In this document: piece by piece, positions 1,049 to 30,443 of the stretch
How the letters are laid out: the number at the start of each line of letters is the position of its first letter
Position numbering within the stretch: the first letter of the stretch is position 1
Assembly: GCA_014381745.1 (NCBI GenBank)
Contig: JACNLA010000042.1
Span: 1-41,222 of the forward strand
Direction of reading: 5' to 3'
Length of the DNA: 41,222 nucleotides
DNA from: Actinomycetota bacterium
GTDB lineage: Bacteria; Actinomycetota; Acidimicrobiia; Acidimicrobiales; MedAcidi-G1
Translations under genes and position numbers: made by a program
Notes under the pieces: generated by a model
The model's database searches: none
Told to the model about the DNA's origin: nothing
Seen by the model: the letters and a program-made list of their open reading frames with translations, nothing else

Positions 1049-1059
1049 CTCGGCGTCTC

Positions 1060-3321: not shown

Positions 3322-3328
3322 CGGCGGC

Positions 3329-3628: not shown

Positions 3629-3630
3629 GC

Positions 3631-8073: not shown

Positions 8074-8098
8074 CAGATTTCCGCCCCTGCCGCTCCGG

Positions 8099-13561: not shown

Positions 13562-13564
13562 GCC

Positions 13565-15074: not shown

Positions 15075-16312
15075 CAGGCCTCCCCAAGTCCTGATGCGGA
15101 ACCAGCGGTCTCGTCGGCACCGCGATCGGCTTCTTCAAGCCTCTCGGCCTGTGCCTTGCGCACGGCACCGGACAAGAGAGAGGCGCCTCCCCAGAGAACC
15201 AGCACCCCGACAATGACAACCGGAATCGTGGGCCATCCCAGATCAGCAGCGACGTCGAGGGTGGCGATCAGAAGGAACCAGCCGAGAGCCGCCGGGATGA
15301 GGACCTTCCAGCCAAGATCCATGAGCTGGTCGTACCGGAACCGAGGCAGGGTGGCCCGGAGCCACACGAAGGTGAACAGGAACGCCATCACCTTCAGGAA
15401 GAACCAGAACAGCGGCCATACCCAGGCAACGCGCTGGGTAACTATCGGTCCGGCCGGACCACCCAGGAAGAGCGTCACAGCGATGGCCGACATGGTGATC
15501 ATGTTCATGAACTCGGAGAGAAAGAACAGCGCGAACCGGATCGAGCTGTACTCGGTGTGGAACCCACCGACCAGTTCCTGTTCGGCCTCGACCAGATCGA
15601 AGGGTGGACGGTTCAGCTCTGCGGTACCGGCAATAAGGAATATTCCGAACGGCACGATTCCGGTGGCGAGCACATTCCATGTCGTTGCCGACTGGCCGAC
15701 CACGATGTCGTGGGTTGAGAGCGAGCCCGAGCTGAGAAAGACCGTGGCTATGGCGAGACCCAGCGCAGCCTCGTAGCTGATCATCTGCGCTGAGGCCCGA
15801 ACAGAACCCAGCAACGGGTACTTGGAGCCCGATGACCAGCCGGCCAGCATCACCCCGTAAACAGCAACTGCGGACAGGGCCAGGAAGAAAAGGACGCCGA
15901 CGGGCGGGTCGGCCACCTGGAGGAAGGTAGACCGACCGAACATCGAGACGGTTCCGTCTCCTCCGTCGGAGAAGTCCCCCCCGACAGGGACGATGGCGAA
16001 GGCCACGAAGGCGGGGATGATCGAGAGGTACGGAGCCAACCTGAACACGACACGGTCGGCTCGCGTTGGCAGAAGGTCCTCTTTGAAGAACAGCTTGATC
16101 CCATCCGCCAGGGTCTGGAGAATTCCCCAAGGGCCTGCCAGCGCCGGGCCGATCCGGTTCTGCATGTCGCTGATGAGCTTGCGCTCGAACCAGATGACGA
16201 GCATCACCGCCACCAGCAGCAGGGCGAAGGCCACGCCAGCCTTCAACAAGACGATAAGGACAACGGTCAGGTCGATCCCGTCAACGAGGAGCGGATCAGC
16301 GGCCAGGATCAT
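15074..16312 (-). CDS. nuoH: NADH-quinone oxidoreductase subunit H (full set)
   Basis: Quinone-chamber membrane subunit, 412 residues. Motifs: [98 protein letters not shown] and [25 protein letters not shown]-terminal extension of about 30 hydrophilic residues (after [16 protein letters not shown]) is not part of the core family. The start overlaps the nuoG stop by 4 bp. The motif set is closer to the classical NuoH than that of the shorter 345-residue copy at 4691-5728. Confidence 0.95.
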
Positions 16313-18771
16313 CGGGCCTTCACCAGCCTCACGTCGATCACCGGCATTGAGGCATCGATCAACCTTCCGGCATCCAGCCCATCCTGGTTGAACAGGACGT
16401 GCGCCGTACCGGCCATGACCTGTGTTGAGGCGACCACCTCGGCGATGTGTTCTCCGCGCGGTCCGCTGATCTCCACGGTGGAGCCGTCCTCCAGGCCCAA
16501 CCGATCCAGATCGGAGGGCTCCACCCTGATGCCGGCACCGGGCGCGAGACCCGCAAGAGCATTGCTGTGGGCGTTCAGCACGCCGTTGTCGAACATGGAC
16601 CTGGTTACGACGAGCCTCAGCGTCGATTCCGTGGCATCAGGTACCTCGGTCACCGGGGGCATGGCGAGCGGCATCTGTCCCTTCGCAAGCAGACCCTCAG
16701 TTCCAGAGGCCCGAATGAGGTTGAGGCTGAGGTCGGCGTGGACCGCTGACACCGATGCCAACTCGGACCAGATCCCGTCAAGCGACGTGAACCCCAGGTC
16801 TGTTCCCAACCGCTCGGCAAGCTCGACTGCAATCATCCAGTCAGGGCGCGAGGTGCCGGGAGGCGATGAACCCCGCGCCACGACGCTGATGCGACCTTCA
16901 AGGTTCGTGAACGATCCGTCAACCTCGGTCGGCGCTGCCGCTGCCAGGACGATGTCGGCGCACTCCACCGTCGACGTGACGAACAGGTCGACTGCCACAA
17001 CCGTCCCAGCTTGCTCAAGTGCCCGTCTGGCCAGGTCGTGGTCGGGAAGGTCGGCCAGGATGTCGGCACCCAGGAGCACCAACACGTCGATATCGCCCGC
17101 TGCAGCAGCCTCGAGGGCGGCAACGCAGCCCAATCCGGTTTCACCCGGGAGACAGGACCAGACGTTCTCAAACTTGTCGCCTGAAGCCTCGAGGGTCGTG
17201 CGGCCCGGCAGGAAGCCCGGTGACATTCCCATGTCCAGGGCCCCGTGCACGTTTCCGCGACGCAGAAGCGAGAGAAAGCCGACGTCTGGCACGTGTTCCA
17301 GCAGGGCCATGGCTGCATCCACGACAAGGCCGTCTGTCTCGGCCAGGGATGTCCGGCCCCACAGCACCGTCACCGGACCGCCCGAGGAGATCACCGCACC
17401 CGCAGCGGCGACGTCGCCGGTCCCTCCTTGGAACATGGACCTCACAACGCCCGCTGCCTCTCCGGGTAGGACCCGGATGGAATGGGTGGCGATGCCGGTG
17501 AGGCCGGTCGCATGGGGGGTCAACTCGATGAGGGTGGCCCCGTCGTGGACCACGGCGTGGCGTAGGCGCAGGTAGAGGCTTCCCAACTCCTCCTTCGGGT
17601 CGGGACCCAGGAGGACGATGGTTCCACCAGGCGTGCAGGCCTCGTCGATGGTGGCCCGTGGCAGGCCCAACAGAACCTCGACCGGCAACCCGTCGCCCAA
17701 CTGGGCGTCGACGTTGTCGGTTCCCAGGATGCCCTTGGCCAACTTGGCCCAGGCGTACTGGGACTCGTTCGTGAGACGGGAACCACCCAGCACGGCGATC
17801 CGATCGGGATCGGTACCGGAAAGTGCCTCGGCGGTGGCCCCAAGGGCATCGGCCCATGTGGCCGAAACCTGCGTCGATCCCTTTGGGTCCTGACCGCCGG
17901 CAGCGCCGCCGCTAAGCAGCGGACCGGTCAGGCGATCTGGATGGTCGTAGGCCTCGAATACGAAGCGCTCCCTGTCAGAGAGCCACCCCCAGTTGACGGC
18001 GTCGGAGTCCAAGCCCATGAACCGGAGCACCCTTCCACGTGAAGACTGCACCGATATGCGGCTGCCGACGCTGTCGAGGACGCTCGTCGATTCGACCTCC
18101 TCAAGATCCCATGGACGGGCCTTGAACCGGAACGGAACCGCTGTGAGCGCTCCGACGGGACAGATCTGGACGGTGTTGCCGCTGAAGTACGAGCTGAAGG
18201 GCTCTCCGGGGAAGGTGTTCACCTGGGTACGGGAGCCGCGCTCGAGGAAGTGGATCAGACGATCGCCGGCTACCTGGTCTGCAAAGCGGGTGCAACGGTC
18301 ACAGAGAACGCACCGTTCACGGTCCAAGAGGACGTTGGTGTTGACCGGGATCGGCTTGACGAAGTGACGCTTCTCCTCGACGTACCTGCTCTCGCCGGGG
18401 CCGAAGGTCATCGTCTGGTCCTGGAGCGGACACTCGCCACCCTTGTCGCAGACAGGACAGTCGAGGGGGTGGTTGACTAACAGGAGTTCCAACACGCCGT
18501 CCTGGGCACTGCGGGTGCGTTCGGACTCCGTGTCGACCTGCATCCCGGGGCTGCAGGTGAGCATGCACGACGGCTGGAGTGCCGGTCCCCTGCCGGTGTC
18601 AACCTCGACCAGGCACATCCGGCACATTCCGACGGGCTCCATCCGGGGGTGGTGGCAGAACCGCGGTATATAGGTTCCGGTCCGCTCGCAGGCGTCGATC
18701 AGGAGCTCTCCCGGACGGGCGGCCACCGTCGAGCCGTTGACCGTGATCTCCACGGGCGCCCCGTCGCTCAT
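16309..18771 (-). CDS. nuoG: NADH-quinone oxidoreductase subunit G (full set)
   Basis: Large Fe-S subunit of the NADH module, 820 residues. The N-terminal [2Fe-2S] domain has Cys39, 50, 53 and 69. The N5 site is His101/Cys105/Cys108/Cys114 (HPLDCPVCDKGGEC). The N4 site is Cys154/157/160 (CVLCDRC) with Cys204 (QICPVGAL). In the following molybdopterin-oxidoreductase-like domain, the segment that carries extra cluster N7 in some bacteria has no Cys (STSVLDSVGSRISV, then WGWLSDRERF), like mitochondrial homologues. The rest is a degenerate MopB-like domain ending in a DLDRLGLEDGSTVEISGPRG dinucleotide-type barrel. It overlaps nuoF and nuoH by 4 bp each. Confidence 0.94.
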   Translation of the reverse strand: MSDGAPVEITVNGSTVAARPGELLIDACERTGTYIPRFCHHPRMEPVGMCRMCLVEVDTGRGPALQPSCMLTCSPGMQVDTESERTRSAQDGVLELLLVNHPLDCPVCDKGGECPLQDQTMTFGPGESRYVEEKRHFVKPIPVNTNVLLDRERCVLCDRCTRFADQVAGDRLIHFLERGSRTQVNTFPGEPFSSYFSGNTVQICPVGALTAVPFRFKARPWDLEEVESTSVLDSVGSRISVQSSRGRVLRFMGLDSDAVNWGWLSDRERFVFEAYDHPDRLTGPLLSGGAAGGQDPKGSTQVSATWADALGATAEALSGTDPDRIAVLGGSRLTNESQYAWAKLAKGILGTDNVDAQLGDGLPVEVLLGLPRATIDEACTPGGTIVLLGPDPKEELGSLYLRLRHAVVHDGATLIELTPHATGLTGIATHSIRVLPGEAAGVVRSMFQGGTGDVAAAGAVISSGGPVTVLWGRTSLAETDGLVVDAAMALLEHVPDVGFLSLLRRGNVHGALDMGMSPGFLPGRTTLEASGDKFENVWSCLPGETGLGCVAALEAAAAGDIDVLVLLGADILADLPDHDLARRALEQAGTVVAVDLFVTSTVECADIVLAAAAPTEVDGSFTNLEGRISVVARGSSPPGTSRPDWMIAVELAERLGTDLGFTSLDGIWSELASVSAVHADLSLNLIRASGTEGLLAKGQMPLAMPPVTEVPDATESTLRLVVTRSMFDNGVLNAHSNALAGLAPGAGIRVEPSDLDRLGLEDGSTVEISGPRGEHIAEVVASTQVMAGTAHVLFNQDGLDAGRLIDASMPVIDVRLVKAR

Positions 18772-20186
18772 GCCCCGGCCTCCGCTGCCACCGGAATGGA
18801 GTCCCGGCGTGTGATGAGGGCCTCGAACTCGTGGCGGAACCGGCGGATCGCCGATGTGATGGGGGCAACGGCCGAAGGGCCGAGAGGGCAGATGGTGGTC
18901 TGGGCGGGTGGAAACGGCACCGCCTCTAGATCTGCTGCGTCAAAGGACGCCACCGGATAGGGACCCGGGCTGATGTGGTTGCCGACGCTGAGAAGCAGGT
19001 CGATGTCTGACGGGCGACCCTCGCCGTCATAGATTCGTTGGAGGATCTTGTGTTCCCAACTGGTGCCCTCGCGGCACGGGGCGCACTTTCCGCAGGATTC
19101 GTTGGCGTAGAAGCGCACGAGCCTCAGGCAGGCCTTCACCGCATCGGTCGTCTCGTCCATGACCACGATCGCGCCTGAGCCGAGCATGGAACCGGCTTCG
19201 GACACGCCCCGGGCCTCCAGCGGTAGGTCGAGATGCTCGCCGAAGAACCAGGGGGCGGAGCCACCGCCGGGAATGAACATCTTCAGCTCGTTGCCGTCGC
19301 GGATTCCCTGGCAGTAGTTGTCACCGTAGAAGAGGTCGCGGAACGTGGTCACTCCCTGTTCGACCTCGTAGACCCCTGGCCTCTGTACATGCCCGGACAC
19401 AGCGAACAGCCGGGTCCCTGGCGAGGCCTCGGAGCCGTAGCCCTTGTATGCGTCAGCACCGTTCTCCATGATCCACGGCAAGTTGGAGAGGGTTTCGACG
19501 TTGTTGACAATGGTGGGCTGACCGTAGAGGCCGATGGCCGCCGGGAAGTACGGGGGCTTCAGCCTTGGCATGCCCCTATTCCCTTCGAGGCTCTCGATGA
19601 GGGCGGTCTCCTCACCGACGATGTAGGCGCCTGCGCCCCAGTGGAGGACTATGTCGACCGAGAAATCTGACCCCAGGATGTTGGATCCAATCAGGTCAGC
19701 CTCGTAGGCCTCGTTGAGGGCGACGGCTATGCGCTCCTGGGCGAGGGCCATCTCACCCCTCACGTAGAGGAAGCACTGCGACAACCCGAGGGCGTAACAG
19801 GTGATGAGGCAGCCCTCGATGAGTTGGTGCGGGTCGCGTTCCATGAGGAGGCGATCCTTGTAGGTTCCCGGCTCACTTTCGTCGCCGTTGACGACTAGGT
19901 AGCGGGGCCAGACACCCTCGGGGCAGAACCCCCACTTCACGCCGGCCGGGAAGCCGGCGCCACCGCGACCCAGGAGGGTGGCCTGCCTGACCTCGTCGTG
20001 GACCTCGGCGGGTGTTCGGGCGAGGGCGGCACGAAGGCCCACGTAGCCTCCGGTCTGCATTGAACGTTCCAGCGTGTACGAGTCCTCGAAGGGGAACCTG
20101 CTCGTCAGCAGGGTCGGACCGCCGTTGACCACGTATCCGGGGGCGTGCTCCACGTAGCCGTCCGGGCTCGGGTTCGTATCAGCCAC
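18768..20186 (-). CDS. nuoF: NADH-quinone oxidoreductase FMN/NADH-binding subunit F (full set)
   Basis: NADH-oxidising flavoprotein, 472 residues from the chosen start. The FMN/NADH site GRGGAGFPAGVKW is at about 73-85, followed by NGDESEPGTYKDR. The cluster N3 motif ESCGKCAPCREGTSWEHKIL and the distal TTICPLGPSA Cys complete the set. I chose the GTG at 20186, which lies across the nuoE stop, because the protein then begins with a normal NuoF N-terminus. The upstream open frame is nuoE read in another frame. This is the only nuoF in the window, so the EFG-less set has no visible NADH site of its own. Confidence 0.95.
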   Translation of the reverse strand: MADTNPSPDGYVEHAPGYVVNGGPTLLTSRFPFEDSYTLERSMQTGGYVGLRAALARTPAEVHDEVRQATLLGRGGAGFPAGVKWGFCPEGVWPRYLVVNGDESEPGTYKDRLLMERDPHQLIEGCLITCYALGLSQCFLYVRGEMALAQERIAVALNEAYEADLIGSNILGSDFSVDIVLHWGAGAYIVGEETALIESLEGNRGMPRLKPPYFPAAIGLYGQPTIVNNVETLSNLPWIMENGADAYKGYGSEASPGTRLFAVSGHVQRPGVYEVEQGVTTFRDLFYGDNYCQGIRDGNELKMFIPGGGSAPWFFGEHLDLPLEARGVSEAGSMLGSGAIVVMDETTDAVKACLRLVRFYANESCGKCAPCREGTSWEHKILQRIYDGEGRPSDIDLLLSVGNHISPGPYPVASFDAADLEAVPFPPAQTTICPLGPSAVAPITSAIRRFRHEFEALITRRDSIPVAAEAGA

Positions 20187-20832
20187 TGGTGTCGACCTCT
20201 GCTGTTGACGACAACCAGACCGGCTGCTCGCCTGCCTGCTCGGGCGGCACCACGCCGGCTCGTCGGCCCGCTGGAATCTCCTGGCGGACTCTTCCCAACC
20301 GACCGTGTTCAGGCATGTCGCCGGAGTCCCCGGCTGCGCCCCGCTGAATCGGGCTACGTCCCTCCCGCAGGTCTGCCACCACCTCGTCAAATACCCCGGG
20401 TGTGGCCCGATGGAAGTACCGGTAGTTCACAGTGAAGCACGGGCCTTCGGTGCAGGCAGCCACACACTCGACATCTTCGACGGTGAACATGCCGTCTTCG
20501 GTCGTGTCGCCGGCACCGGCTCCGAGGGTGGATTCGACGTGGTCTAGGAGCTCCTCGCCACCCAGGAGTTGGCAGGAGATGTTGGTGCAGACGTTGACCA
20601 TGTAGCGGCCCACCGGGTGAAATTTGAACATCTCGTAGAAGCTGCCGGTGCCGAGAACCTCGGCAGGGGTCACCCCGGTCAGGTCTGCAATCTGGAGCAT
20701 CGCCTCACGGGTCACCCAGCCCTCCTGCTCCTGGGCCAGGTGCAACAGGGGTATGACAGCCGACTTGGGTCGCGGATACCGGCCGATGATCTCAAGGGCC
20801 AGGCTCTGGTTGGTGTCGCTGAAGTACCCCAT
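20179..20832 (-). CDS. nuoE: NADH-quinone oxidoreductase [2Fe-2S] subunit E (full set)
   Basis: Thioredoxin-fold [2Fe-2S] subunit, 217 residues. Ligands Cys82 and Cys87 (CTNISC) and Cys123 and Cys127 (CVAAC) have the Cx4C...Cx3C spacing of NuoE. The N-terminal helical part (residues 10-60, LLHLAQEQEGWVTREAM) is typical. About 55 C-terminal residues after the core domain are hydrophilic and unlike other NuoE proteins; they may be disordered. Start and stop interlock with nuoD (20832) and nuoF. Confidence 0.94.
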   Translation of the reverse strand: MGYFSDTNQSLALEIIGRYPRPKSAVIPLLHLAQEQEGWVTREAMLQIADLTGVTPAEVLGTGSFYEMFKFHPVGRYMVNVCTNISCQLLGGEELLDHVESTLGAGAGDTTEDGMFTVEDVECVAACTEGPCFTVNYRYFHRATPGVFDEVVADLREGRSPIQRGAAGDSGDMPEHGRLGRVRQEIPAGRRAGVVPPEQAGEQPVWLSSTAEVDTSG

Positions 20833-22106
20833 CAGCGGTCCACCTCGCCCATGATCGGGTCCACCGATGAGATCACGGCGACGGCGTCGGCGATGAGACC
20901 ACCCTCCATGAGGTGGGGAAGCGTCTGGAGGTTTACAAAGGAGGGACCCCGGATGTGCATCCGGTAGGGGTTCGGACCACCGTCGGACACGAGGTAGCAG
21001 CCAAGCTCACCGCGTGGTGACTCGACCGCCACGTAGACCTCGCCTTCGGGAACGTGGAATCCCTCGGTGAAGATCTTGAAGTGGTGGATGAGGGCTTCCA
21101 TGGACTCGTCGATGCGTGCCCTGGGTGGAGGCGTGACCTTCTTGTCCTGGGTTCTGTAGTCACCGTCGGGCATCAGTTCCAGGATCTGCTCGACGATTCG
21201 CAGCGACTCGCGTGTCTCGTTGAGGCGGATTGCGAAACGGTCGAACGAGTCGCCGTAGGTTCCCACGAGCACGTCAAAATCGACTTGGTCGTAGGCCAGG
21301 TAGGGCTCGTCACGTCGCAGGTCCCAGGCGTATCCGGTGGAGCGAAGGATCGGACCGGTCGCAGAGAGGGCGAGGGCCTCTGCGGGGGTCATCACGCCGA
21401 CTCCCTGCAGGCGTTCCCTGAAGATGGGCTGGCCGGTCAAAAGGGTGTCGTATTCGTCCAGCCGTGGCGGGATCAGGTCCAAAAGGCGCCGGACGTCGTC
21501 GCGCCATCCGTCGGGGAGGTCGGCCGCCACGCCACCGGGTCGGATGTAGTTGTGGTTCATCCGCAGGCCGGTGACCTTCTCGAAGAAGCGCAGCACCTCT
21601 TCGCGCTCCCTCCAGCCGTAGATCATCATCGACACGGCGCCGAGGTCCATTCCGTTGGTCGCCTGGAACAGCAGGTGGGAGGCGACCCGGTTCAGCTCGC
21701 ACATGAGCATCCTGATCCAGGTAGCCCGCGGTGGAACCTCGATGCCGAGGAGTTTCTCGGTGGCCAGGGAAAACGCAAGTTCGGAAAACAGCGGTGCCGC
21801 GTAGTCCATTCTGGTGACGTTGGTGGGGCCCTGGAGGTAGGTCAGGTTCTCGCCGGTTTTCTCCATGCCGGTGTGCAGGTAGCCGATGATGGGCTTGGTC
21901 CGCAGCACCGTCTCGCCCTCCATCTCCAGCATCAGGCGGAGGACGCCGTGGGTCGACGGGTGTGACGGCCCCATGTTGAGGATCATCCGCTCATCGTCGT
22001 CGGGGTTGTCGGGATCGCCGGCCAGGTCCCGTGCCTCGGCTTCGCTGACCCGCAGGACGGCGCTGCCGTCGCGTCGGTGAACGCGCTCGGCGTCGCCGAG
22101 ATCCAT
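20832..22106 (-). CDS. nuoD: NADH-quinone oxidoreductase subunit D (full set)
   Basis: Quinone-site subunit, about 424 residues. Hallmark LNMGPSHPSTHGVLRL follows an acidic linker (DPDNPDDDERM). Further blocks: KPIIGYLHTGMEKTGENLTY, RLMLEMEGETVLRTKP and the terminal SSVDPIMGEVDR. The start is ambiguous. The ATG at 22106 has AGGA six bases upstream; a GTG at 22130 overlaps the nuoC stop and would add eight residues, with GGAG upstream. I took the ATG. All catalytic-region blocks are intact. Confidence 0.93.
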   Translation of the reverse strand: MDLGDAERVHRRDGSAVLRVSEAEARDLAGDPDNPDDDERMILNMGPSHPSTHGVLRLMLEMEGETVLRTKPIIGYLHTGMEKTGENLTYLQGPTNVTRMDYAAPLFSELAFSLATEKLLGIEVPPRATWIRMLMCELNRVASHLLFQATNGMDLGAVSMMIYGWREREEVLRFFEKVTGLRMNHNYIRPGGVAADLPDGWRDDVRRLLDLIPPRLDEYDTLLTGQPIFRERLQGVGVMTPAEALALSATGPILRSTGYAWDLRRDEPYLAYDQVDFDVLVGTYGDSFDRFAIRLNETRESLRIVEQILELMPDGDYRTQDKKVTPPPRARIDESMEALIHHFKIFTEGFHVPEGEVYVAVESPRGELGCYLVSDGGPNPYRMHIRGPSFVNLQTLPHLMEGGLIADAVAVISSVDPIMGEVDR

Positions 22107-22126
22107 GGTGGTTCCTGCCTCGATGC

Positions 22127-22600
22127 TCACCGTGGCTCCGGAGCTTCCCTGAACTGGATCGGGATCCTGCCTGTGTCGACGTCCTTGCGGAGTGGATGGC
22201 CCTCCCACTCCTCGGGCAGCAGGATCCTGGTCATGTCGGGATGCCCGTCGAACACGATGCCGAAGAGGTCGAAGACCTCGCGCTCCATGGCTTCGGTCCC
22301 GGGGAACAGGTCGAACAGGGAGGGCACCGCTGGATCGCCCTCTGGAACCTGAACACGGAGCCGGATGCGCTCACAACGCTGATGGTCGTGCAGCAACACC
22401 ACCACCTCGAACCGTTCCGGTGTCACGTCGGCTGGAAGATCGTTGCGGCCGGGGTGGGCCACATAGTCGACTGCGGTCACGTCTACGGCGGTCAGAAAGC
22501 CGTCGTCACGCAGGCCGCTGGCCGTTGCGAACAGCTGGTCTGGGCCAAGGTGCATTACCCGCTGGCCGCGGGAGAGGGTCTCGGGAACGGCCGTGGTCAT
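22127..22600 (-). CDS. nuoC: NADH-quinone oxidoreductase subunit C (full set)
   Basis: Peripheral-arm scaffold subunit, 157 residues, a compact NuoC. The signature region is [41 protein letters not shown]. It lacks the N-terminal extension and acidic tail seen in the 230-residue copy at 6894-7586. Overlap with nuoB is 4 bp at 22597-22600. Confidence 0.93.
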
Positions 22601-23205
22601 CGGGAACCCAGCTGGACGGGTTGCTCGGTGGACCCGCCTGTGGGTGGCTCCTGTACGTGAATCGCCGCTCCGCCCTCGTTTTCATCGCGGCGGCGGGTCA
22701 GCTCGCCGGTACGGATGTTGTCGTGGAGGGTGAGGATTGCGTGCATGAGGGTCTCGGGCCCGGGTGGACAGCCCGGTGCGTAGACGTCGACCGGGACCAC
22801 CTGGTCGACCCCCTGAACGATTGCGTAGTTGTTGAACATCCCGCCGCTGGATGCACAGACGCCCATGGAGATGACCCACTTGGGTTCCATCATCTGGTCA
22901 TAGATCTGTCGTAGGACGGGCGCCATTTTCTGGGATACCCGGCCTGCCACGATCATCAGGTCGGCCTGACGCGGCGAGGCCCGAAAGACCTCCATCCCGT
23001 AGCGGGCGAGGTCGTAGTGGGCGGCTCCGGTGGCCATCATCTCGATTGCGCAACATGCCAGGCCGAACGTGGCCGGCCAGCAACTACGCGCTCTGGACCA
23101 CTTCACCAGATCCTCGATGCGTGCCGTCACGAAGTTGTGGTCCAGCCCCTCGAGGCCGTCGTCGCCCACCCGTGAGACGTCACCCAGGATCGGTAGGCGC
23201 CGCAT
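22597..23205 (-). CDS. nuoB: NADH-quinone oxidoreductase iron-sulfur subunit B (full set)
   Basis: Carries cluster N2; 202 residues. Ligands are Cys51-Cys52 (GLACCAIEM), Cys117 ([10 protein letters not shown]) and Cys146 (APGCPPGPE), the classical spacing. I chose the ATG at 23205, which overlaps the nuoA TGA by one base; the longer open frame upstream is nuoA in another frame. The C-terminal 40 residues are hydrophilic and variable. Confidence 0.94.
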
Positions 23206-23681
23206 CAGGAATCGCCTCCGGTGCGGCCCTCGAGGCCGACCTGGCGTATCCCGGCGCGCGAAACGGTCGTCGACGTGGTCCGGGTTGCTGAGACGACGTC
23301 TCCGGTCTGTGCCTCGCGGCGGATAGGTCCCCACTCGAGGGCGCCGTTGCCTATCAGGTAGACGAACGACTCGAATACGGCCAACGAGAAGACGAGAACG
23401 GCTATCAGGCCGAAGAGGCCCATTTCACCGTGTGCTATCGCCCACGGGTAGAAGAAGATGATCTCGATGTCGAACACGATGAAGATCATCGCCACGAGGA
23501 AGAAACGAACTGGAAAGCGCTCGGGCGCCTCGCGACCCGGGATGATCCCGCACTCGTAGGGCGCTTCCTTCTTGTCGTTGGGGCTGCGGGGCGCCAGCAG
23601 CCTCGAGGCAAAGAAGCTGAGCGCCGCGAACAGAAACGCCAGAACGATCAGGAACACGATGGGCAGGTACTGACCGAGCAC
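23205..23681 (-). CDS. nuoA: NADH-quinone oxidoreductase subunit A (full set), first nuo gene
   Basis: Three-helix membrane subunit, 158 residues. The loop motif [10 protein letters not shown] and the second-helix signature [22 protein letters not shown] are present. About 40 residues at the C-terminus (Thr, Arg and Gly rich) extend beyond the family core. Only 49 bp separate it from the unknown membrane protein gene upstream, and I see no terminator there. The complex I genes are therefore probably read through from the bc cluster (inference). Confidence 0.94.
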
Positions 23682-23730: not shown

Positions 23731-24741
23731 TCAGGCTCCTGCCGCTTCGAACTCCTCACGCCGTGCCATGACCTCCTTGTCACGGACATGGAGCCAATGG
23801 CAGAGAGCGAGAAACACGAGCAGGGATCCGATCGTGACGAGGGCCGGCCGTAGCCTCACGCTGCCCAGGTCGCGGACCATGACAACCGAAACGACAGGCT
23901 CATCAACGTCTGCGACGGGCCTCGGCGGGGCCTCACCCGGGATCGTCGGCTGGTCCACCACGGACTGGAGTTGGACCACGGTGTACTTGACAGGATTTGT
24001 GATCCGAGCCGAGTTGGTGACCCACAGGCTGATCCTGTCCCACCGGTTCGGATCGTCGGACAGGGTCGGCTTGCCACCCGTCGTGAAGGCGTCCAGGAGC
24101 TTGAAGTCTCCACTGGAGCCAAAGCCGAGGTCACTGTGGGAGAGCACGTCGGCCACTGCCTGGGCCTGGGCATCGCCGGCCTCGGTGGTGGCCAGGAGGC
24201 GCCATCCGCCTAGATCGCCGAAGCCTGCACCGTCGGTCACCTCTGGGGCAACGGCAGCCAACTCCGACCTGGTGACGGTCTCGTTTCGGACCTGTCGGTC
24301 GGCACGCAGCCGTTCAAGCTCCTCGGCGGGAAGGTCGGGGTACTCGCTGGCAGTGGGAAGCAATCCGTATTCGGCCACAGCCCGGGCTTCGCCGGTCGAC
24401 ACCACCAGCTCATAACCGGTCGGTAGGGAGTCCGGATTGGGCAGGAGCCTGGCTTCGGGAAGCCCGCTGGCCGCCAGATCGCCGACGTTGATGTCGACGG
24501 TTATCCATGCGGGGCTGTCGCCCTGCCAACCCTTTCCGTACATCCACCAGGTGGAGCCCATGATGACCATCCAACCCATCAGGGCGGTGGCTGCGAGAAG
24601 GGTTCCAACCCTGATACCGGAGTTCGTGGCAAGGATCAGCCACACTGACCCCATGAGCACTGCAACGCCGGTGGCTACAACAAGGATCCCGGCGATATGC
24701 GGGTTGTAGGCGAGGCCTGCGAGCAAGACGAACGCACCCAT
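23731..24741 (-). CDS. Unknown membrane protein at the end of the cytochrome bc cluster
   Basis: I do not recognise a family. The 336-residue protein has two clear membrane helices near the N-terminus (about 15-37 and 43-66, the second ending in WWMYGKGWQG). A soluble region of about 220 residues follows, then one membrane helix near the C-terminus (RPALVTIGSLLVFLALCHWL) and a short charged tail. The soluble part has no Cys pairs or heme motif and carries a Pro-rich stretch (PTIPGEAPPRPVADVDEP). The ATG at 24741 overlaps the stop of the diheme cytochrome gene (TGATG); a GTG one codon earlier is possible. The tight coupling suggests an accessory or structural subunit of the bc complex, or a complex I-III linking protein. 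That role is inference only. Confidence 0.8.
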   Translation of the reverse strand: MGAFVLLAGLAYNPHIAGILVVATGVAVLMGSVWLILATNSGIRVGTLLAATALMGWMVIMGSTWWMYGKGWQGDSPAWITVDINVGDLAASGLPEARLLPNPDSLPTGYELVVSTGEARAVAEYGLLPTASEYPDLPAEELERLRADRQVRNETVTRSELAAVAPEVTDGAGFGDLGGWRLLATTEAGDAQAQAVADVLSHSDLGFGSSGDFKLLDAFTTGGKPTLSDDPNRWDRISLWVTNSARITNPVKYTVVQLQSVVDQPTIPGEAPPRPVADVDEPVVSVVMVRDLGSVRLRPALVTIGSLLVFLALCHWLHVRDKEVMARREEFEAAGA

Positions 24742-25931
24742 CACAGGCTCCTCTCGTAGGCCACGATGGCGTCGATCTGCTCGGGGGTGAGCAGTTGGCT
24801 GCGCTCCACGGTTCCGATCACGTCAAGGTCGTCGACCCGTCCGCCGTAGCCGGGCATTCCGCCTGAGCCGGTTCGGGCATTACCGAAGCCGATCCCGAAC
24901 TCAGAGCCGGTCCGGATGAACTCTGACTGCCGCTGGCTTGTCGAGAAATGTGCCTCTACCCCGGCCAGGTCGGGTCCCACGTGGCCCGCTCCGGGCAGCC
25001 AGCCGGTCAGGATCCCTGAGTCTGCTAGCCGTGGCCATGTCTCGAGCAGGTCGGCTGTCGCTGCCTCGCTGGTCGCGCCAAATGAGAAGCCGGGTGTGTG
25101 GCAGCGGGCGCAGCTGTTGGCGCCCTGGCCCGCTGCGTTGTTGAAGAGCAGTTCGCCGTACTGCAGGTAGTCGCTGCTGCCGGGTCTTGTTGCCTGTTCC
25201 AACCAGACGTCGATCGCCGCGTGGATGGCGTCCCTGTCGGTCAGCGACGGGTCTGCCGCTGTCACGATGGCCCCGACGCCGGCGCGCAGGCCGGAGTCGA
25301 TCTCGGCGGTAGCGGCGTCCTGATCCAACTGAATCGAGCGCATGTAGATGACGAGCTGGTCAACTTGCTGGGCTGTCAACGGGCCACCTCCGGGGAGGCC
25401 CCATGCGGGCATTGGCGTTCCGGGGCGCCCGTAGTCAAGGATGCTCCGCACCTCTTCCTCGCTGAACCTGGAGAGAACCGTGGTGAGAGCCGGTGCCTTC
25501 CATTCGACCTGGGCAACGAACTCGCCGTCGGAGTCGGCAACCGTAAAGGCGGCGACACCACCGACACCGCCGGGTCCATGGCAGCTGGCGCAACCCTCCT
25601 CGAAGGTCCGAGCGCCCTTGACCTCGAAGCGGTGGACCCAGTCGATGGCTGCGTTCTCCTGTCGGGCAGGTTCCATCAGCCAGTACATGGGCAGCACTAG
25701 GGAGACGGCGGCAAGCGTTACGAGCGACCAGGCGAGGCTCCGGTCAAGCACCCTGGTTTCCAGTTCAAAATCGTCGACATGGGGCCGCCGGTTGGCCGCC
25801 TGGTCGATTTCGGAACCGATCTCACGCTTTCCTATGCGAAAGCTGAAGAGCAGGTAGACGAGGAACCCGACCACCACGAGGACGGCCAGCACAAGGCCGA
25901 TCGTGCGTTGTGTGCTTGCTGCGAGGATCAT
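24741..25931 (-). CDS. Membrane-anchored diheme cytochrome c of the bc-type complex (QcrC-like)
   Basis: 396 residues with two N-terminal membrane helices (about 10-31 and 66-85) followed by two cytochrome c domains. Heme-attachment motifs are CASCH (114-118) and CARCH (274-278). Candidate axial Met residues are Met174 (GTPMPAWG) and Met359 (GGMPGYGG). A pair of c-type domains tethered to the membrane next to a Rieske/cytochrome b gene is the actinobacterial QcrC arrangement, in which the diheme subunit replaces cytochrome c1 and passes electrons on to the oxidase. The architecture here (two helices at the N-terminus, none at the C-terminus) differs from the classical QcrC, so I give no gene symbol. 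It overlaps the following gene and lies 33 bp after the Rieske gene. Confidence 0.88.
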   Translation of the reverse strand: MILAASTQRTIGLVLAVLVVVGFLVYLLFSFRIGKREIGSEIDQAANRRPHVDDFELETRVLDRSLAWSLVTLAAVSLVLPMYWLMEPARQENAAIDWVHRFEVKGARTFEEGCASCHGPGGVGGVAAFTVADSDGEFVAQVEWKAPALTTVLSRFSEEEVRSILDYGRPGTPMPAWGLPGGGPLTAQQVDQLVIYMRSIQLDQDAATAEIDSGLRAGVGAIVTAADPSLTDRDAIHAAIDVWLEQATRPGSSDYLQYGELLFNNAAGQGANSCARCHTPGFSFGATSEAATADLLETWPRLADSGILTGWLPGAGHVGPDLAGVEAHFSTSQRQSEFIRTGSEFGIGFGNARTGSGGMPGYGGRVDDLDVIGTVERSQLLTPEQIDAIVAYERSL

Positions 25932-25964: not shown

Positions 25965-26840
25965 CTAGTGGCCGCCGCCGGCGCCTATGCAGTGCGGACC
26001 CTCGGCCTCCTGGCCGGTGGTGTTGGTTCCGATCGGGGGTCCCTGGACGATCGTGCCGGTGTCAACCGTGAGCACGCCGTCGACTACGGACATGGCGAAC
26101 CTGTCCATTCCCCTCGGAGCAGGGCCTCCACGCTTCTCTCCGACCTGGTTGAACTGGGAGCCGTGGCAGGGGCATTCGAACCACTGTGATGAAACACACT
26201 CGGGAACCCGACAACCAAGGTGTGGACACTTCTGGTAAAGGGCCACGACACCGCTCTCGAATCCGTTTTCGACCCCGGCGGCCATGCCGGCCAACTCGGT
26301 TGACGAGTAGGCCGCCCGTGCCTTCTCGACGGCACCGTTGGGATACGCGGTGATCCACATTCGACCCTCGGGCCTGTAGAGAAAGCCGTTCTTATCCTTG
26401 ATCTCGGCAAGCAGCTCGACCATGTTGCCGACCTTCAGCTTTGAGCCAAAACCGCTGACACCCTGAGGCCACAGGAAGGCAATGCAGGCTCCGCCGAAGC
26501 CGGAGAGGCCAAGACCCATCATGCCGACGATGCTGCGGTTGAAGAACTGGCGGCGGGACACGCCGAGTGCCTGGGGGTCGGGCGCAACGAACGGCTCAGC
26601 CGGTGCGGACTCGACGACTGGTGCCGCTTCCACCTGGCGGGCTGCAACGGCCTCTTGTTCTACCTGGCGCCCTGTAGGGGGAGCGTCGGAGGACCCTGCA
26701 TCGAGAACCGGGTTGGTCCTGTCGTTGCGACGCGCCTCGCGGGACAGGCCTGCAGCGTTGCGTTCGCGGCGCCTTGAGGCACCGATGAGGATCACCCCGG
26801 CCATCACGACCAGCACGATGATGGGTATCACAACTACCAC
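25965..26840 (-). CDS. qcrA: Rieske [2Fe-2S] protein of the bc-type complex
   Basis: 291 residues. The order is an N-terminal membrane helix (3-21), an Arg-rich then Pro/Ala-rich linker, a twin-arginine motif (SRRQFFNRS from residue 95), a second hydrophobic helix (about 103-126) and the Rieske domain. Cluster ligands are Cys205 and His207 (CPHLGC) and Cys223 and His226 (CPCHGS), with Cys210-Cys225 as the usual disulfide. Cys215 is additional. The internal twin-arginine motif before the last helix agrees with Tat-dependent export of the folded domain, as in other actinobacterial QcrA proteins. The start is GTG at 26840, with GGAG seven bases upstream. It oxidises quinol together with cytochrome b and feeds the c-type hemes. 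Confidence 0.93.
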   Translation of the reverse strand: MVVVIPIIVLVVMAGVILIGASRRRERNAAGLSREARRNDRTNPVLDAGSSDAPPTGRQVEQEAVAARQVEAAPVVESAPAEPFVAPDPQALGVSRRQFFNRSIVGMMGLGLSGFGGACIAFLWPQGVSGFGSKLKVGNMVELLAEIKDKNGFLYRPEGRMWITAYPNGAVEKARAAYSSTELAGMAAGVENGFESGVVALYQKCPHLGCRVPECVSSQWFECPCHGSQFNQVGEKRGGPAPRGMDRFAMSVVDGVLTVDTGTIVQGPPIGTNTTGQEAEGPHCIGAGGGH

Positions 26841-26892: not shown

Positions 26893-27624
26893 TCACAGTT
26901 CGAAGAACAGGCCGCTGTTCCACGGGAAGATGAAGTTGAAGCCCGGTCCACGGAAGAACGATCCGATCATCACGAGGACGGCCCAGAACATGAGGTGCAC
27001 GGTCATCAGCGAGATGGCAAACTTGCGGTCCTCGGGGGCCTTGGACGGGTTTTTGTCGATGTAGGGGGCCATGATCAGGAGAATGAGGCCGATGCCCGGG
27101 ATGGTCACACCGGCGACCATCGGGTGAAACATTGTGAGCATCTCCTGAAGACCCAGGAAGTACCACGGTGCCTTGGAGGGATTGGGTGTCTGGTTGAAGT
27201 TGGCCAGATCCAGCAGGGGTGCGTTCACGAAGATCGAGAACAACAACGTGAACAGGGTTACGGCCAGAGCTGCAAGGAACTCGGCCACCAGAAGGTGGGG
27301 CCAGACGTGCACCTTGTCCTGGGGAACCGACTTGGTGTCCTGGATGGAACCTGACTTGACGACGGTGAGAAGGCGCTGGTTGTGCCCGTCGGGACCGCTG
27401 CCCGGAGCAGGCGCACCTGAGCCGGTCGGAACTGGATCGGCACCCGCCGCCGGCTGGTCTGCTGCGGCCTTGCTCCTGTCGAGGAGATGGACGGGGATCT
27501 TTCCCTCGGTCGCGTCGCCGGGTGAGGGCTCTGGGGCGGCTGGCGTGTCGGCAGCGGCCGAGCCTGCGGCCTTCTGTCGGGCCTCTTCGGCCCGCTTGCG
27601 TAGGTGTTCGGGGATCTCGGTCAT
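26893..27624 (-). CDS. Cytochrome b C-terminal half (subunit IV type) with TEIPEHL N-terminal tag
   Basis: 243 residues. The C-terminal 135 residues form a three-helix subunit IV-like domain (helices near 111-133, 172-190 and 204-224). The quinol-oxidation-site motif reads APWY at 152-155 in place of the classical PEWY. The N-terminal 95 residues are soluble, Ala/Pro/Gly rich and probably disordered. They begin MTEIPEHLRKRAEEAR and contain a second, looser copy, KIPVHLLDRSK, at 42-52. A near-identical N-terminus is found on the divergent cytochrome c at 29676. The gene follows the b6-type gene by 15 bp; together they make a split cytochrome b as in b6f complexes. Confidence 0.9.
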   Translation of the reverse strand: MTEIPEHLRKRAEEARQKAAGSAAADTPAAPEPSPGDATEGKIPVHLLDRSKAAADQPAAGADPVPTGSGAPAPGSGPDGHNQRLLTVVKSGSIQDTKSVPQDKVHVWPHLLVAEFLAALAVTLFTLLFSIFVNAPLLDLANFNQTPNPSKAPWYFLGLQEMLTMFHPMVAGVTIPGIGLILLIMAPYIDKNPSKAPEDRKFAISLMTVHLMFWAVLVMIGSFFRGPGFNFIFPWNSGLFFEL

Positions 27625-27639: not shown

Positions 27640-28407
27640 CTAGAGGGGTCCGGAGATTCCGCCGTCCTTGCGGACGCGCCAGAAGTGGATTGCCATGAAG
27701 ATCACCGTCACAAAGGGCAGCATCAGGACGTGTAGTACGTACCAGCGCAACAGGGTGTCGGTGCCGATCTCGACGCCACCCAGGAGAACGAACCTGACCT
27801 GGGACCCAAACACCGGTGTGAAGCCCATCATGTTGGTGCCGACCGTTACCGCCCAGAGAGCAAGTTGGTCCCATGGCAGCAGGTAGCCGGTGAACGACAG
27901 CAGCAGGGTGAACTGCAGCAGCATCACGCCGATGACCCAGTTGAACTCACGCGGCGGCTTGTATGCGCCGTGGTAGAAGACCCTGGCCATGTGGAGGAAC
28001 ACGGACAGAACCATGAGGTGCGCGGCCCACCTGTGCATGTTGCGTACGAGGAGGCCGAAGCCGACCGCCGTATGGAGGGTCAAGATGTCGTCCCATGCCT
28101 GGGCCGCTGTCGGCCGGTAGAAGAACATCAGGAATATGCCCGTAACGGTGAGCAGGATGAACAGGAAGAAGCTCAACCCGCCCAGACACAGCGTGTAGCT
28201 CACCTTCACGGCGTGCCGCTTCACCTTTACCGGGTGGAGGTGGTAGAGGACGCTGTTCATGATCACGTAGGACCGGTTCCTGGGGCTGTCGCTGTAGCCC
28301 TTGCGGAAGATGGAGCCGGGTCTGAAGATGGATCCCCAGGCCTGAGAGCCCTGTACGCGCTCTGCCAGCGCCTGTCCGGTCGGCTTGGCGCCGTTGCTAT
28401 CGGCCAC
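27640..28407 (-). CDS. Cytochrome b6-type N-terminal half of the bc complex
   Basis: 255 residues, four membrane helices. Heme b ligands are His125 and His139 (13 residues apart) and His226 and His241 (14 residues apart). The 14-residue gap is the b6 pattern, against 13 in mitochondrial-type cytochrome b. Cys74 in YTLCLGG sits where b6 proteins carry the Cys that covalently binds heme ci. The YKPPREFNWVIG and GYLLPWDQLALWAV blocks and the terminal RKDGGISGPL also resemble cytochrome b6. It ends there and lacks the subunit IV half, which is a separate gene downstream. The start is GTG at 28407 with AGGAG upstream. An internal repeat (GSIFRPGSIFRK) lies in the soluble N-terminus. Confidence 0.93.
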   Translation of the reverse strand: MADSNGAKPTGQALAERVQGSQAWGSIFRPGSIFRKGYSDSPRNRSYVIMNSVLYHLHPVKVKRHAVKVSYTLCLGGLSFFLFILLTVTGIFLMFFYRPTAAQAWDDILTLHTAVGFGLLVRNMHRWAAHLMVLSVFLHMARVFYHGAYKPPREFNWVIGVMLLQFTLLLSFTGYLLPWDQLALWAVTVGTNMMGFTPVFGSQVRFVLLGGVEIGTDTLLRWYVLHVLMLPFVTVIFMAIHFWRVRKDGGISGPL

Positions 28408-28472: not shown

Positions 28473-28889
28473 TCAGCCGAGGCGCAGGCCGTAGCCGTAG
28501 CCGTGGCTGTTGGTGCGCTGGTGGGAGTCACCATCTGCGGGTGGGTCGGTCAACTTGCCGAGAATGATGACACCGGTGGGGCAGCGATCGACACAGAGGG
28601 CGCAGCGGGTGCAGATGTCGTCGTCGATGGTGAAGATGACGTGATCGCTGGGGTCGTCGCCGGGCATCTCGGTGCCGACGGCTTCGGCTATTGCGTCGGG
28701 CCTGACCATGTGGATGCACTTCCACGGACAGATGTCGACACAGCCCTCACACATGATGCACTCGGACTGGTCAATGTGGATGAACTGCTTCGGCTTTACC
28801 GCTGTGGCCATCCAGGCGGCATCGACCTCGCGCAGCGTGTAGTCGTCGACGAAGGTCGGGTGGGCGGGGTTGGCGTCGATGACGCTCAT
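28473..28889 (-). CDS. Two-[4Fe-4S] ferredoxin-like protein in the bc cluster
   Basis: 138 residues, soluble. Two CxxCxxCxxxC motifs bind two [4Fe-4S] clusters: Cys44, 47, 50, 54 (CIMCEGCVDIC) and Cys93, 96, 99, 103 (CTRCALCVDRC), with an extra Cys58. The linker between them is about 38 residues, longer than in small 2[4Fe-4S] ferredoxins. A 35-residue N-terminal part precedes the first cluster and a Gly/Tyr/His tail (SHGYGYGLRLG) ends the protein. It overlaps the small membrane protein gene upstream by 4 bp and lies 65 bp ahead of cytochrome b6. A ferredoxin is not a standard bc subunit. It may be an extra redox subunit or an electron carrier for the EFG-less complex I (inference). Confidence 0.88.
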   Translation of the reverse strand: MSVIDANPAHPTFVDDYTLREVDAAWMATAVKPKQFIHIDQSECIMCEGCVDICPWKCIHMVRPDAIAEAVGTEMPGDDPSDHVIFTIDDDICTRCALCVDRCPTGVIILGKLTDPPADGDSHQRTNSHGYGYGLRLG

Positions 28890-29341
28890 GTGCCTGCCCC
28901 CTCACGTACAAGCGGGCGCCCGTATTCAGAGGTCGGCACGGGTGCGGCTTCTTCGGTGCCCCGGTTCTGCCACTTCTTCCAGAGAACGGCGTTGCCGCCG
29001 AGACCCACGAAGTAGATGAGCACCGCGACGACGTCGCGGATCACCTGGTAGGTCATGGTGAAGGGAAGTGCCCATTCGACGATGCCCTGGTCGCCGGTCC
29101 AGGGCAGCGATGGCCCGATCAGGAAGCGATCGGGACGCCAGTTCAGCTCGCTGTCGGCCCAGGTCAGCCACTGGTGCGGAACCACGCCGTAGACCCAGAA
29201 CATGATCATGAAGACGTAGGTGGCGAAGAACATTGCCTCGCCCCAGGTGAAGTCCTTGTCGGCGGGACAGCGGTCACGGTATGCACCGGCACCGGCCACC
29301 ATGAGGGCCAGCACGATGATGGATACGACGAACGCGACCAT
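28886..29341 (-). CDS. Small three-helix membrane protein, first gene of the bc/nuo tract
   Basis: Not a family I recognise. 151 residues with membrane helices near 1-20, 36-55 and 99-120. A Trp-rich loop lies between the second and third (HQWLTWADSELNWRPDRFLIGPSLPW). The C-terminal 25 residues are charged and probably cytoplasmic or disordered. There are no heme or Fe-S motifs. The ATG at 29341 has a perfect AGGAGG nine bases upstream (29351-29356), the strongest ribosome binding site in the tract. Its start overlaps nothing, and it overlaps the ferredoxin gene by 4 bp. Being first in the operon and coupled to a ferredoxin, it could anchor that ferredoxin to the membrane (inference). Confidence 0.82.
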   Translation of the reverse strand: MVAFVVSIIVLALMVAGAGAYRDRCPADKDFTWGEAMFFATYVFMIMFWVYGVVPHQWLTWADSELNWRPDRFLIGPSLPWTGDQGIVEWALPFTMTYQVIRDVVAVLIYFVGLGGNAVLWKKWQNRGTEEAAPVPTSEYGRPLVREGAGT

Positions 29342-29675
29342 CGTTTGAATCCTCCTCGGCGGGTCTCGGCGACTGGGTGGTTACAGCGACTTAGTGAAGC
29401 GATGCACAAGCACTATGCCCGCCCCATGTTAGTAGGTGGTCCACGGACTCCACGACCCTCGATCGGTCCCGTCGTGACGTCCGTGCACAGACGGTGTGTC
29501 TATCACGCCGCGTGCGATGCGACTACCCCGGCGGGTGTCATCTGGCTTGTCCGGATCGGCACCGGACGACCTACAGTGCCAGCTAGCCTGCACCTGTCCG
29601 ATCAGCGGTTGGTGTACGGCCCACCGCACACTGAACCCAGACCGATCCGAACATCACGTCGCCCCGGAGACCACG
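29342..29675. other. Divergent promoter region between the bc/nuo tract and the cytochrome c gene
   Basis: 334 bp without a gene I can support. It holds the ribosome binding site of the minus-strand tract (29351-29356), a Rex-like operator (29393-29413) and a possible minus-strand -10 element (CATAGT, 29411-29416) abutting it. On the plus side, a candidate -10 (TACAGT or the nearby TAGCCT, 29572-29588) precedes a leader of about 90 bases and the GGAGA at 29666-29670. Plus-strand reading frames through this region lack a recognisable product. Confidence 0.5.
29393..29413 (-). promoter_or_regulatory. Putative Rex operator upstream of the bc/nuo tract
   Basis: On the minus strand the core reads TGTGCATCGCTTCACT (29408 to 29393), a near-palindrome. 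It fits the Rex operator consensus known from Streptomyces (TGTGAAC-N3-TTCACA) imperfectly. More telling, the 20-bp string GTGCTTGTGCA-N4-TTCAC (29413 to 29394) is repeated with the same 16 fixed bases at 39578-39597 in front of rex. It lies 52 bp before the first ATG of the tract, beside a possible -10 element, where a bound repressor would block transcription. Regulator assignment is inference. Confidence 0.6.
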
Positions 29676-30443
29676 TTGACTGAGATCCCCGAGCACCTTT
29701 TGAAGCGCTCACGCCAAGCCCGTGGCACCACCGCCGACGAGCCGACCGAAAAGGCAGACGACACAACCCCGGCCGCTACCTCCGGTGCCGTCCAGCCGGC
29801 CGCTGAGCCGGCCAGCACACCTGAACCGGCTCCCGCAGTACCGGTTGCCCCCTACAACGCTGCAGCCTCAAGCCGCAAGAAGATCCCCTGGTGGGCTGCC
29901 AGCGCACTGGTCCTGCTGCCAATCTGGGCCATCACCTACGTCGGCACTCTCGAACGCCCCCCCGAGGCAGGGTCCTCCGGTCTTCTGGCCGACGGCGACC
30001 ACGTCTACTCAGCGCGCTGCGCCAGCTGCCACGGAGCATCCGGCGAAGGTGGAGCCGGCCCGGCCATGACCGATGGCGAGGTAACAGCCACCTTCCCGAC
30101 CCCTGCGGAACACATCGTGTGGGTGGCGTCAGGCTCTGCAGGCGTCGGGCTCGGCAGCCCGTACGGCGACGAGGCCGTCGGTCGCGTTGCAGTCGGTGGC
30201 ATGCCTGGATTCGGCACAGCCCTGACCACAGAGGAACTGATCGGCGTCGTCCTGTACGAGCGGGCCCACTTCAGCGGCTCCGAGTTCGATGAGGGCCTGG
30301 CCGAGGCCATGGACGAAGCCATCCATTCAGGCCAGCTTGACCTCGAGGGCCACCTCGATCCGGAAACCGTCACCGTCGACGAGGTCCTCGACCTCCTACG
30401 GTCGGCCGAGTTCGGACAGGACGACCAGCTCGCCACCGGCTGA
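29676..30443 (+). CDS. Membrane-anchored monoheme cytochrome c with TEIPEHL N-terminal tag
   Basis: 255 residues. A soluble N-terminal segment begins TEIPEHLLKRSRQARG, then an Ala/Pro/Thr/Glu-rich linker (20-65), one membrane helix (about 69-90, IPWWAASALVLLPIWAITYVG) and an exported cytochrome c domain. The heme site is CASCH at 115-119, with a candidate axial Met176 (GGMPGFG). The C-terminal 55 residues are acidic. I chose the TTG at 29676 because GGAGA lies five bases upstream and the protein then starts with the same peptide as the subunit IV gene (26893-27624). The topology agrees with an electron carrier between the bc complex and an oxidase. It is divergent from the bc/nuo tract. Confidence 0.87.
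   Translation: MTEIPEHLLKRSRQARGTTADEPTEKADDTTPAATSGAVQPAAEPASTPEPAPAVPVAPYNAAASSRKKIPWWAASALVLLPIWAITYVGTLERPPEAGSSGLLADGDHVYSARCASCHGASGEGGAGPAMTDGEVTATFPTPAEHIVWVASGSAGVGLGSPYGDEAVGRVAVGGMPGFGTALTTEELIGVVLYERAHFSGSEFDEGLAEAMDEAIHSGQLDLEGHLDPETVTVDEVLDLLRSAEFGQDDQLATG

Follow-up and report, generated by a model that had tools for sequence, protein, structure and literature searches.

The two-[4Fe-4S] ferredoxin (Fd) encoded inside the bc gene cluster of the window (the whole stretch of 41,222 nucleotides analysed here) is, in the reading that we cautiously favour, a bc partner docked on the n-side whose electrons run in circuit with a complex I lacking NuoE, NuoF and NuoG (EFG-less). Fd would thus be a dedicated n-side (cytoplasmic-side) partner of a split-cytochrome-b (b6f-like) bc complex, docking at least partly via an RLL(T/A)xV peptide in the tail of subunit IV, beside a three-helix membrane protein (TM3), and the electrons it carries would run in one low-potential circuit with those of the EFG-less complex I.

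Fd carries two CxxCxxCxxxCP motifs (C44/47/50/54 and C93/96/99/103), whose eight cysteines are invariant in a 17-row alignment, and the Pfam families Fer4, Fer4_7 and Fer4_10 all score above cut-off. Together these identify it as a predicted dicluster 2x[4Fe-4S] ferredoxin, and the open reading frame, motifs and Pfam matches bear out the initial annotation on this point. The same annotation called the inter-cluster linker long; at 38 residues (C54 to C93) it is close to the spacing between the clusters of NuoI and is not exotic. The structural model of Fd was too poor for use (pLDDT 41).

The host genome assembly comprises 2.19 Mb in 44 contigs, of which the window is contig C44. Downstream of Fd lie genes for cytochrome b6, subunit IV, a Rieske protein, a cytochrome c and a 337-residue protein, followed by two complex I gene sets, nuo1 and nuo2 (Table 1). 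The clustering of cytochrome b6, subunit IV, Rieske and cytochrome c genes marks a predicted split, b6f-like Rieske/cytb (bc) complex. The nuo2 set, which in the window comprises nuoA-D and nuoH-L with no E, F or G (M being cut by the contig end), is a predicted 11-subunit complex I (nuoA-D plus nuoH-N), and its presence in the same tract as Fd had been correctly called; likewise, no E, F or G match at 1e-6 was found in any of the 20 nuo2 clusters checked besides that of the window. The 337-residue protein, for which Pfam and NCBIfam give no match at 0.001, is little conserved from family to family. Adjoining the tract is a gene for a geranylgeranyl-reductase family protein that in NCBIfam matches best to MenJ, a menaquinone reductase (346 bits; the cut-off is 700), and such a neighbour would agree with menaquinone being the quinone used. 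An IPEHLLKRSxxA-like peptide recurs in the subunit IV tail and in the cytochrome c of the opposite strand; across 80 named loci it was found in subunit IV in 55, in the opposite-strand cytochrome in 30 and also in 5 other frames, with three copies in the subunit IV tail of genome G018, and it is possibly a common docking peptide.

Table 1 Positions of features in the window and in compared loci and genomes (locus or contig handles precede the coordinates outside the window).
Feature	Position	Strand	Remarks
EFG-less complex I set nuo2	1..8464	minus	A-D, H-L; M cut by contig end
Complex I set nuo1	8563..23681	minus	complete (A-N)
337-aa protein	23731..24744	minus	recurrent bc cluster member
Cytochrome c	24741..25931	minus	two CXXCH motifs
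Rieske protein	25965..26840	minus	CPHLGC...CPCH
Subunit IV-like C-terminal cytochrome b	26893..27624	minus	long N-terminal tail
Subunit IV tail peptide R84-V89 (RLLTVV)	27358..27375	minus	proposed docking site; tracks Fd presence
IPEHLLKRSxxA-like peptide, subunit IV tail	27472-27498	minus	
Cytochrome b6-type cytochrome b	27640..28407	minus	putative heme-ci cysteine C74 (TLCLGGL)
Cytochrome b6 G37-Y38	28294..28299	minus	N-terminal segment
Two-[4Fe-4S] ferredoxin, Fd	28473..28889	minus	138 aa; ATG-start ORF; Fer4-type Pfam
Three-helix membrane protein TM3	28886..29341	minus	151 aa; upstream of Fd, 4-nt overlap with Fd start
Cytochrome c	29496..30443	plus	opposite strand; IPEHLLKRS tail peptide
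IPEHLLKRSxxA-like peptide, cytochrome c	29685-29711	plus	
Geranylgeranyl-reductase family protein	30508-31827	plus	
Type B flavoprotein-ferredoxin heads	L036:7152-9853; L037:5687-8508; L172:6214-8876; L173:3327-6477		
NuoD2 apart from other nuo genes	L085:8469-9659; L222:4771		genomes G193, G153
Distant NuoB/NuoD-like genes	G114:C8:254570-255976; G201:C28:6132-9721		G201 also NuoL/M-like

The AlphaFold2 model of TM3 displays helices at residues 2-24, 33-64 and 98-125 (mean pLDDT 84.6). Pfam gives no match for TM3 at 0.001 (DUF4199 at 0.0017) and the PDB none by fold at E ≤ 0.001, while sequence matches to the PDB were short and chance-like and were dismissed. Gene order was read in the best 80 named relatives, all of them near relatives and most titled Acidimicrobiia or Acidimicrobiales (two are titled Bifidobacterium breve, probably mislabelled). 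TM3 lies directly upstream of Fd in 79/79 loci with room for it and cytochrome b6 directly downstream in 76/76, an arrangement that is therefore not due to chance; the TM3 stop touches or overlaps the Fd start as aligned in 59 of the 79 (spacing -4 to 0 nt), the overlap being exactly 4 nt in 44. With the overlap in the window and the conserved order, the proposed coupling of Fd to a three-helix membrane protein at the head of the tract is upheld. Read gene by gene, eight loci from other classes (L075, L080-L083, L088-L090) also have Fd directly preceding cytochrome b6.

Eight bc clusters without Fd proved informative. They were drawn from a sample of the class and a sample of the phylum as genomes that gave no Fd match and whose type A cytochrome b6 (the type of the window) does not lie at a contig edge: G114 (L033), G036 (L034), G018 (L035), G256 (L071), G286 (L072), G305 (L073), G201 (L074) and G266 (L171). 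Class genomes with neither Fd nor a type A cytochrome b6 were excluded from the count of Fd losses, and G084, G111, G160 and G368, which are Fd-less with a type A cytochrome b6 at a contig edge, were not counted as losses. G096 gave no match in the genome search, yet 41 residues of Fd stand at a contig start. TM3 is found directly before cytochrome b6 in all eight clusters (in L073 by its profile, E 8.5e-38), four of which come from one family, f75.

We scanned the columns that are conserved in at least 90% of Fd-bearing rows, of which five bc subunits supplied 223 and nine nuo2 subunits 591. A single column fell below 1e-3, V89 of subunit IV, which is kept in 66/67 Fd-bearing rows and changed in 5/6 Fd-less ones (p 2.4e-6, about 0.002 after Bonferroni correction); L86 and L85 rank next. 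All three belong to the peptide R84-LLTVV-89, located in the subunit IV tail that precedes helix 1 and that we take to be n-side by b6f topology. The nuo2 part of the scan had only four Fd-less rows, three of them from one family, so that a nuo2 docking site may have gone unnoticed. The pattern R[LM]L[AT][VILM]V is present in 151/151 tails that are distinct, readable and accompanied by Fd beside cytochrome b6, a set that leaves out 10 unreadable tails, 26 duplicates and 3 loci with a cut cytochrome b6, and in 0/6 readable Fd-less tails (those of G018 and G201 are unreadable); in a shuffled-tail control it matched 3 times in 31400. The Fisher values ignore phylogeny, and the letters of the pattern were adjusted once initial results were in: an earlier pattern without M at one position missed eight Fd-bearing tails, all RLLAMV, and was then widened to [VILM], with position 4 narrowed to [AT].

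The Fd-less tails read RLADVI (G114), RLLAFV (G036), a shortened RIRSV (G256), RRQMPL (G286), RRLEMA (G305) and RRLGLT (G266). That of G036 departs from the pattern by one residue, the same-genus genome G096, which has both Fd and nuo2, reading RLLTVV against RLLAFV in G036, which has neither; the four Fd-bearing members of f75 that were read (G276, G315, G335, G363) all have RLLAMV. The peptide is lost both in G286, G266 and G305, where nuo2 is kept, and in G256, G114 and G036, where nuo2 is undetected, and hence follows Fd rather than nuo2; nor does it follow TM3, which all eight Fd-less clusters keep. Residue Y38 of cytochrome b6 is changed in 3/8 Fd-less rows against 2/71 Fd-bearing rows. 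We also summed relaxation over conserved columns, both for Fd-less rows (n-side tails 56/280, other positions 84/1386) and for Fd-bearing rows (84/5697 and 282/23892), and discarded this measure as confounded by clade, because Fd-bearing relatives in the f75/f44/f46 clade are equally divergent; single columns, comparison with matched relatives and the peptide took its place. The covariation of the peptide with Fd, whatever nuo2 does, speaks against the initial assumption that bc complexes can do without a ferredoxin, and suggests that Fd probably docks physically on the bc complex.

A second, divergent bc cluster, type B, was found at four loci (L036, L037, L172, L173; cytochrome b 52-55% identical), of which L036 and L037 are from one genus and L173 has cytochrome b and subunit IV fused. 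Directly upstream, it is headed by a GltD-like Fer4_20/Pyr_redox_2 flavoprotein with a C-terminal two-cluster ferredoxin domain. As an independent check on the peptide, the type B subunit IV tails fit R[VL]LGVV in 4/4 read (RVLGVV, RVLGVV, RLLGVV and RLLGVV), with G at position 4. A TM3-like ORF lies upstream in three of the four loci, weakly matched by the TM3 profile (L172 2.4e-7, L037 5.5e-7, L036 2.8e-4); the profile search of L173 ORFs gave no match. Counting duplicates, all type A loci with Fd-type clusters have the putative heme-ci cysteine (191/191), as have 8/8 Fd-less clusters; type B has Y or R at the aligned position (4/4). The putative ci cysteine does not track Fd, and the predicted docking peptide goes with the ferredoxin domain, not with TM3 and not with the ci cysteine.

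These observations bear on two other explanations. Fd could be purely a redox subunit of the bc complex that exchanges electrons with heme ci or the Qi site, independent of nuo2, as its synteny with cytochrome b6, the tail peptide and the cysteine found throughout type A would allow; yet that cysteine persists where Fd is missing and is absent from the type B clusters with their ferredoxin domain, and the joint absence of Fd and nuo2 described below is left unexplained, which makes this account unlikely. The alternative offered in the initial annotation, an n-side redox subunit in exchange with heme ci, accordingly survives in part: the tail peptide favours an n-side bc partner, but the link to heme ci is not borne out. 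Fd might instead not be a working carrier but help to assemble or mature the bc complex as the reductant for inserting heme or Fe-S clusters, a role that would suit a gene in the cluster that is dispensable in some lineages. We consider this improbable, given that Fd-less clusters keep the ci cysteine and, in 6/8, the Rieske gene (in G018 and G201 the contig stops short of it), that Fd and nuo2 are jointly absent, and that a lasting docking peptide would be unexpected for a maturation factor.

Fd, by our preferred reading a docked bc partner, was also compared with nuo2 in its distribution. Fd matches were obtained in 120/148 sampled genomes of the class (E ≤ 1e-15) and in 80/246 genomes of the phylum sample (E ≤ 1e-12), 16 of these in the class and 64 in other classes, among which G235 matches via a fusion-type protein only. 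NuoD2-type matches (E ≤ 1e-90 to NuoD2 of the window) occur in 128/148 and 113/246 genomes, respectively. Within the class, 117 genomes have both, 3 have Fd without NuoD2, 11 have NuoD2 without Fd and 17 have neither; 14 of the 17 belong to families f3, f5 and f6 and are uninformative, since only a distant cytochrome b is found there. Occurrence of nuo2 without Fd is common (the 11 class genomes and 39/97 NuoD2-type genomes outside the class), and of the 11, G018 is the one loss that was read, the others having no assembled or no type A region.

Among the eight Fd-less clusters, nuo2 is undetected in G114, G036, G256 and G201, which represent four families, with NuoD2, NuoB2 and NuoL2 all tried; these genomes are 93-96% complete, that of G256 being one 4.6 Mb contig. 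The other four (G018, G286, G305, G266) lack Fd and keep a nuo2 cluster without E, F or G. Six Fd-bearing genomes of other classes have no NuoD2 at 1e-90 (G168, G215, G232, G310, G335, G342): NuoB2 is present in G168, G215 and G342, NuoL2 in G310, and NuoD2 of G168 seems to be split between contig ends, while G232 and G335 (95 and 93% complete) have no NuoD2, NuoB2 or NuoL2 match, G335 also having no nuo1-type NuoL. In the class, G120 has NuoB2, and G104 and G140 (78 and 73% complete) remain without detected nuo2. Overall, nuo2 is undetected in 4/184 Fd-bearing genomes (120 in the class, 64 outside), namely G232, G335, G104 and G140, all drafts that are 73-95% complete and whose incompleteness could explain the result, as against 4/8 Fd-less genomes (Fisher p 8e-5, which ignores phylogeny). 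The expected co-occurrence of Fd with the EFG-less set is therefore favoured on balance, with half of the Fd-less genomes still keeping nuo2, and the contrary case, Fd and bc genes in a genome lacking the EFG-less set, is represented by four draft candidates and is not established.

In the window, Fd and nuo2 are about 20 kb apart, with retained genes between them. Fd-less rows, seven of the eight being included, are scattered in the cytochrome b6 tree, where G036 stands beside G096; G256 and G305 pair weakly (85/53) and may share one Fd loss. The joint absence suggests that Fd deals in the electrons that nuo2 handles, as donor, acceptor or supercomplex neighbour, and a circuit shared between Fd and the EFG-less complex I is an almost evenly balanced proposition, leaning slightly to the doubtful side.

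Fd could, alternatively, be simply the soluble donor of the EFG-less complex I, sharing the bc locus only for co-regulation. The same joint absence, with bc retained, would fit such a donor, the more so as the donor of the 11-subunit complex I is presented as an open question in PMC11238625; however, the subunit IV peptide goes with Fd also in genomes that have kept nuo2, four genomes (G018, G286, G266, G305) have nuo2 but no Fd, and there is no Fd gene in the five nuo2 clusters listed (L078, L079, L084, L086, L087). We judge this explanation quite unlikely. With those four genomes and the 39/97 outside the class, Fd is not a general or obligate donor, and the expectation for such a pair that neither partner is lost alone failed in the same four. 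The donor role initially proposed for Fd thus draws support from the four families that lack both but does not extend to the genomes that keep nuo2 without Fd; in the four just named, bc being kept as well, Fd is dispensable to each of the two complexes.

We tried KorAB as a common source of electrons for Fd and nuo2 and rejected it, as KorA does not follow Fd: KorA (TIGR03710) is found in 129/148 class genomes, including G114 and G036, which are without Fd and nuo2, and is missing from 11 genomes at least 92% complete that have both (G009, G023, G031, G039, G040, G071, G080, G091, G095, G122, G145). Three further observations were made on nuo genes. NuoD2 lies apart from other nuo genes in G193 and G153, so nuo2 is not a single cluster everywhere. 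Distant NuoB/NuoD-like genes occur in G114 and G201, which lack Fd and nuo2, and may belong to a group 4 hydrogenase-type complex. Finally, near-Acidimicrobiia genes in the distant drafts G187 (contig C115) and G277 (contig C498), with Fd at 1.2e-79 and NuoD2 80% identical, are probably contamination.

Returning to Fd as a docked bc partner in circuit with nuo2, the most likely flow, which we put forward tentatively, would be from reduced Fd to the n-side quinone site and/or to a nearby nuo2 complex. Judging from type B, this docking site may also be offered electrons that derive from NAD(P)H. More speculatively, the bc complexes of deep-branching Actinomycetota might have a built-in ferredoxin port, at which, in form A, TM3 and subunit IV keep Fd in place and, in form B, an NAD(P)H-flavoprotein-ferredoxin fusion docks on the same tail peptide, and would then act as a Qi-side ferredoxin/NAD(P)H-linked quinone oxidoreductase in tandem with the EFG-less complex I; this generalisation is possible rather than probable.

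Ferredoxin electron input to b6f-type complexes on the n-side is debated. A bc-cluster ferredoxin for which a docking peptide of six residues is predicted, and which some natural lineages have lost, makes testable both this question and that of the donor of the 11-subunit complex I, and, if true, a carrier docked on the inner face of the bc complex and tied to an NADH-independent complex I would be an unusual respiratory wiring. Among the matches listed in a search of titles and abstract openings of the open-access literature, with subscription literature mostly outside its scope, there was no description of a ferredoxin in an Actinomycetota bc cluster. Extra subunits are frequent in Rieske/cytb complexes, according to PMC4683180, which cites Ten Brink 2013, and PMC3578206 describes for Nitrospina a split-b operon along with a second complex I, for which reduction of ferredoxin is suggested.

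Compared with known systems, Fd resembles NuoI and other dicluster ferredoxins in its two [4Fe-4S] motifs, and NuoI (TIGR01971) tops its NCBIfam matches; with a score of 40.5 bits where the cut-off demands 113, however, identity as NuoI was rejected, and none of Fd's matches (best 25 of 58) reached its own cut-off. Unlike NuoI, Fd is encoded outside the nuo clusters, has an invariant CPW and a C58 present in at least 90% of the 17 rows, and, in the class, carries a GYxYG tail. The cytochromes of the ExtP/ExtQ selenite-tellurite operon are similar in that cytochrome b6 of the window exceeds the ExtP cut-off (300.6 against 290), but subunit IV falls under that of ExtQ (49.2 against 150) and the remaining genes of the cluster form a bc complex; the ExtP label on this cytochrome b6 is probably misleading and the naming a likely source of misannotation.

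Cytochrome b6f shares with the window cluster the split cytochrome b6/subunit IV, the putative ci cysteine and the Rieske protein, and the N-terminus of its subunit IV (PetD) is functionally essential as reported in PMC13287000. The window cluster differs in adding a CXXCH cytochrome c, an encoded ferredoxin, TM3 and, on subunit IV, a long tail that contains the RLL peptide, and its complex is probably menaquinol-linked. The 11-subunit complex I of Desulfitobacterium and Sulfobacillus likewise lacks E, F and G; excerpts of PMC11238625 and PMC4378227 describe its donor as unresolved, with a ferredoxin proposed, the former recording a failed search for a common donor and the latter both complex I forms in Sulfobacillus. 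In contrast to that type, nuo2 coexists with a complete 14-subunit set and is in part linked phylogenetically to the ferredoxin of a bc cluster.
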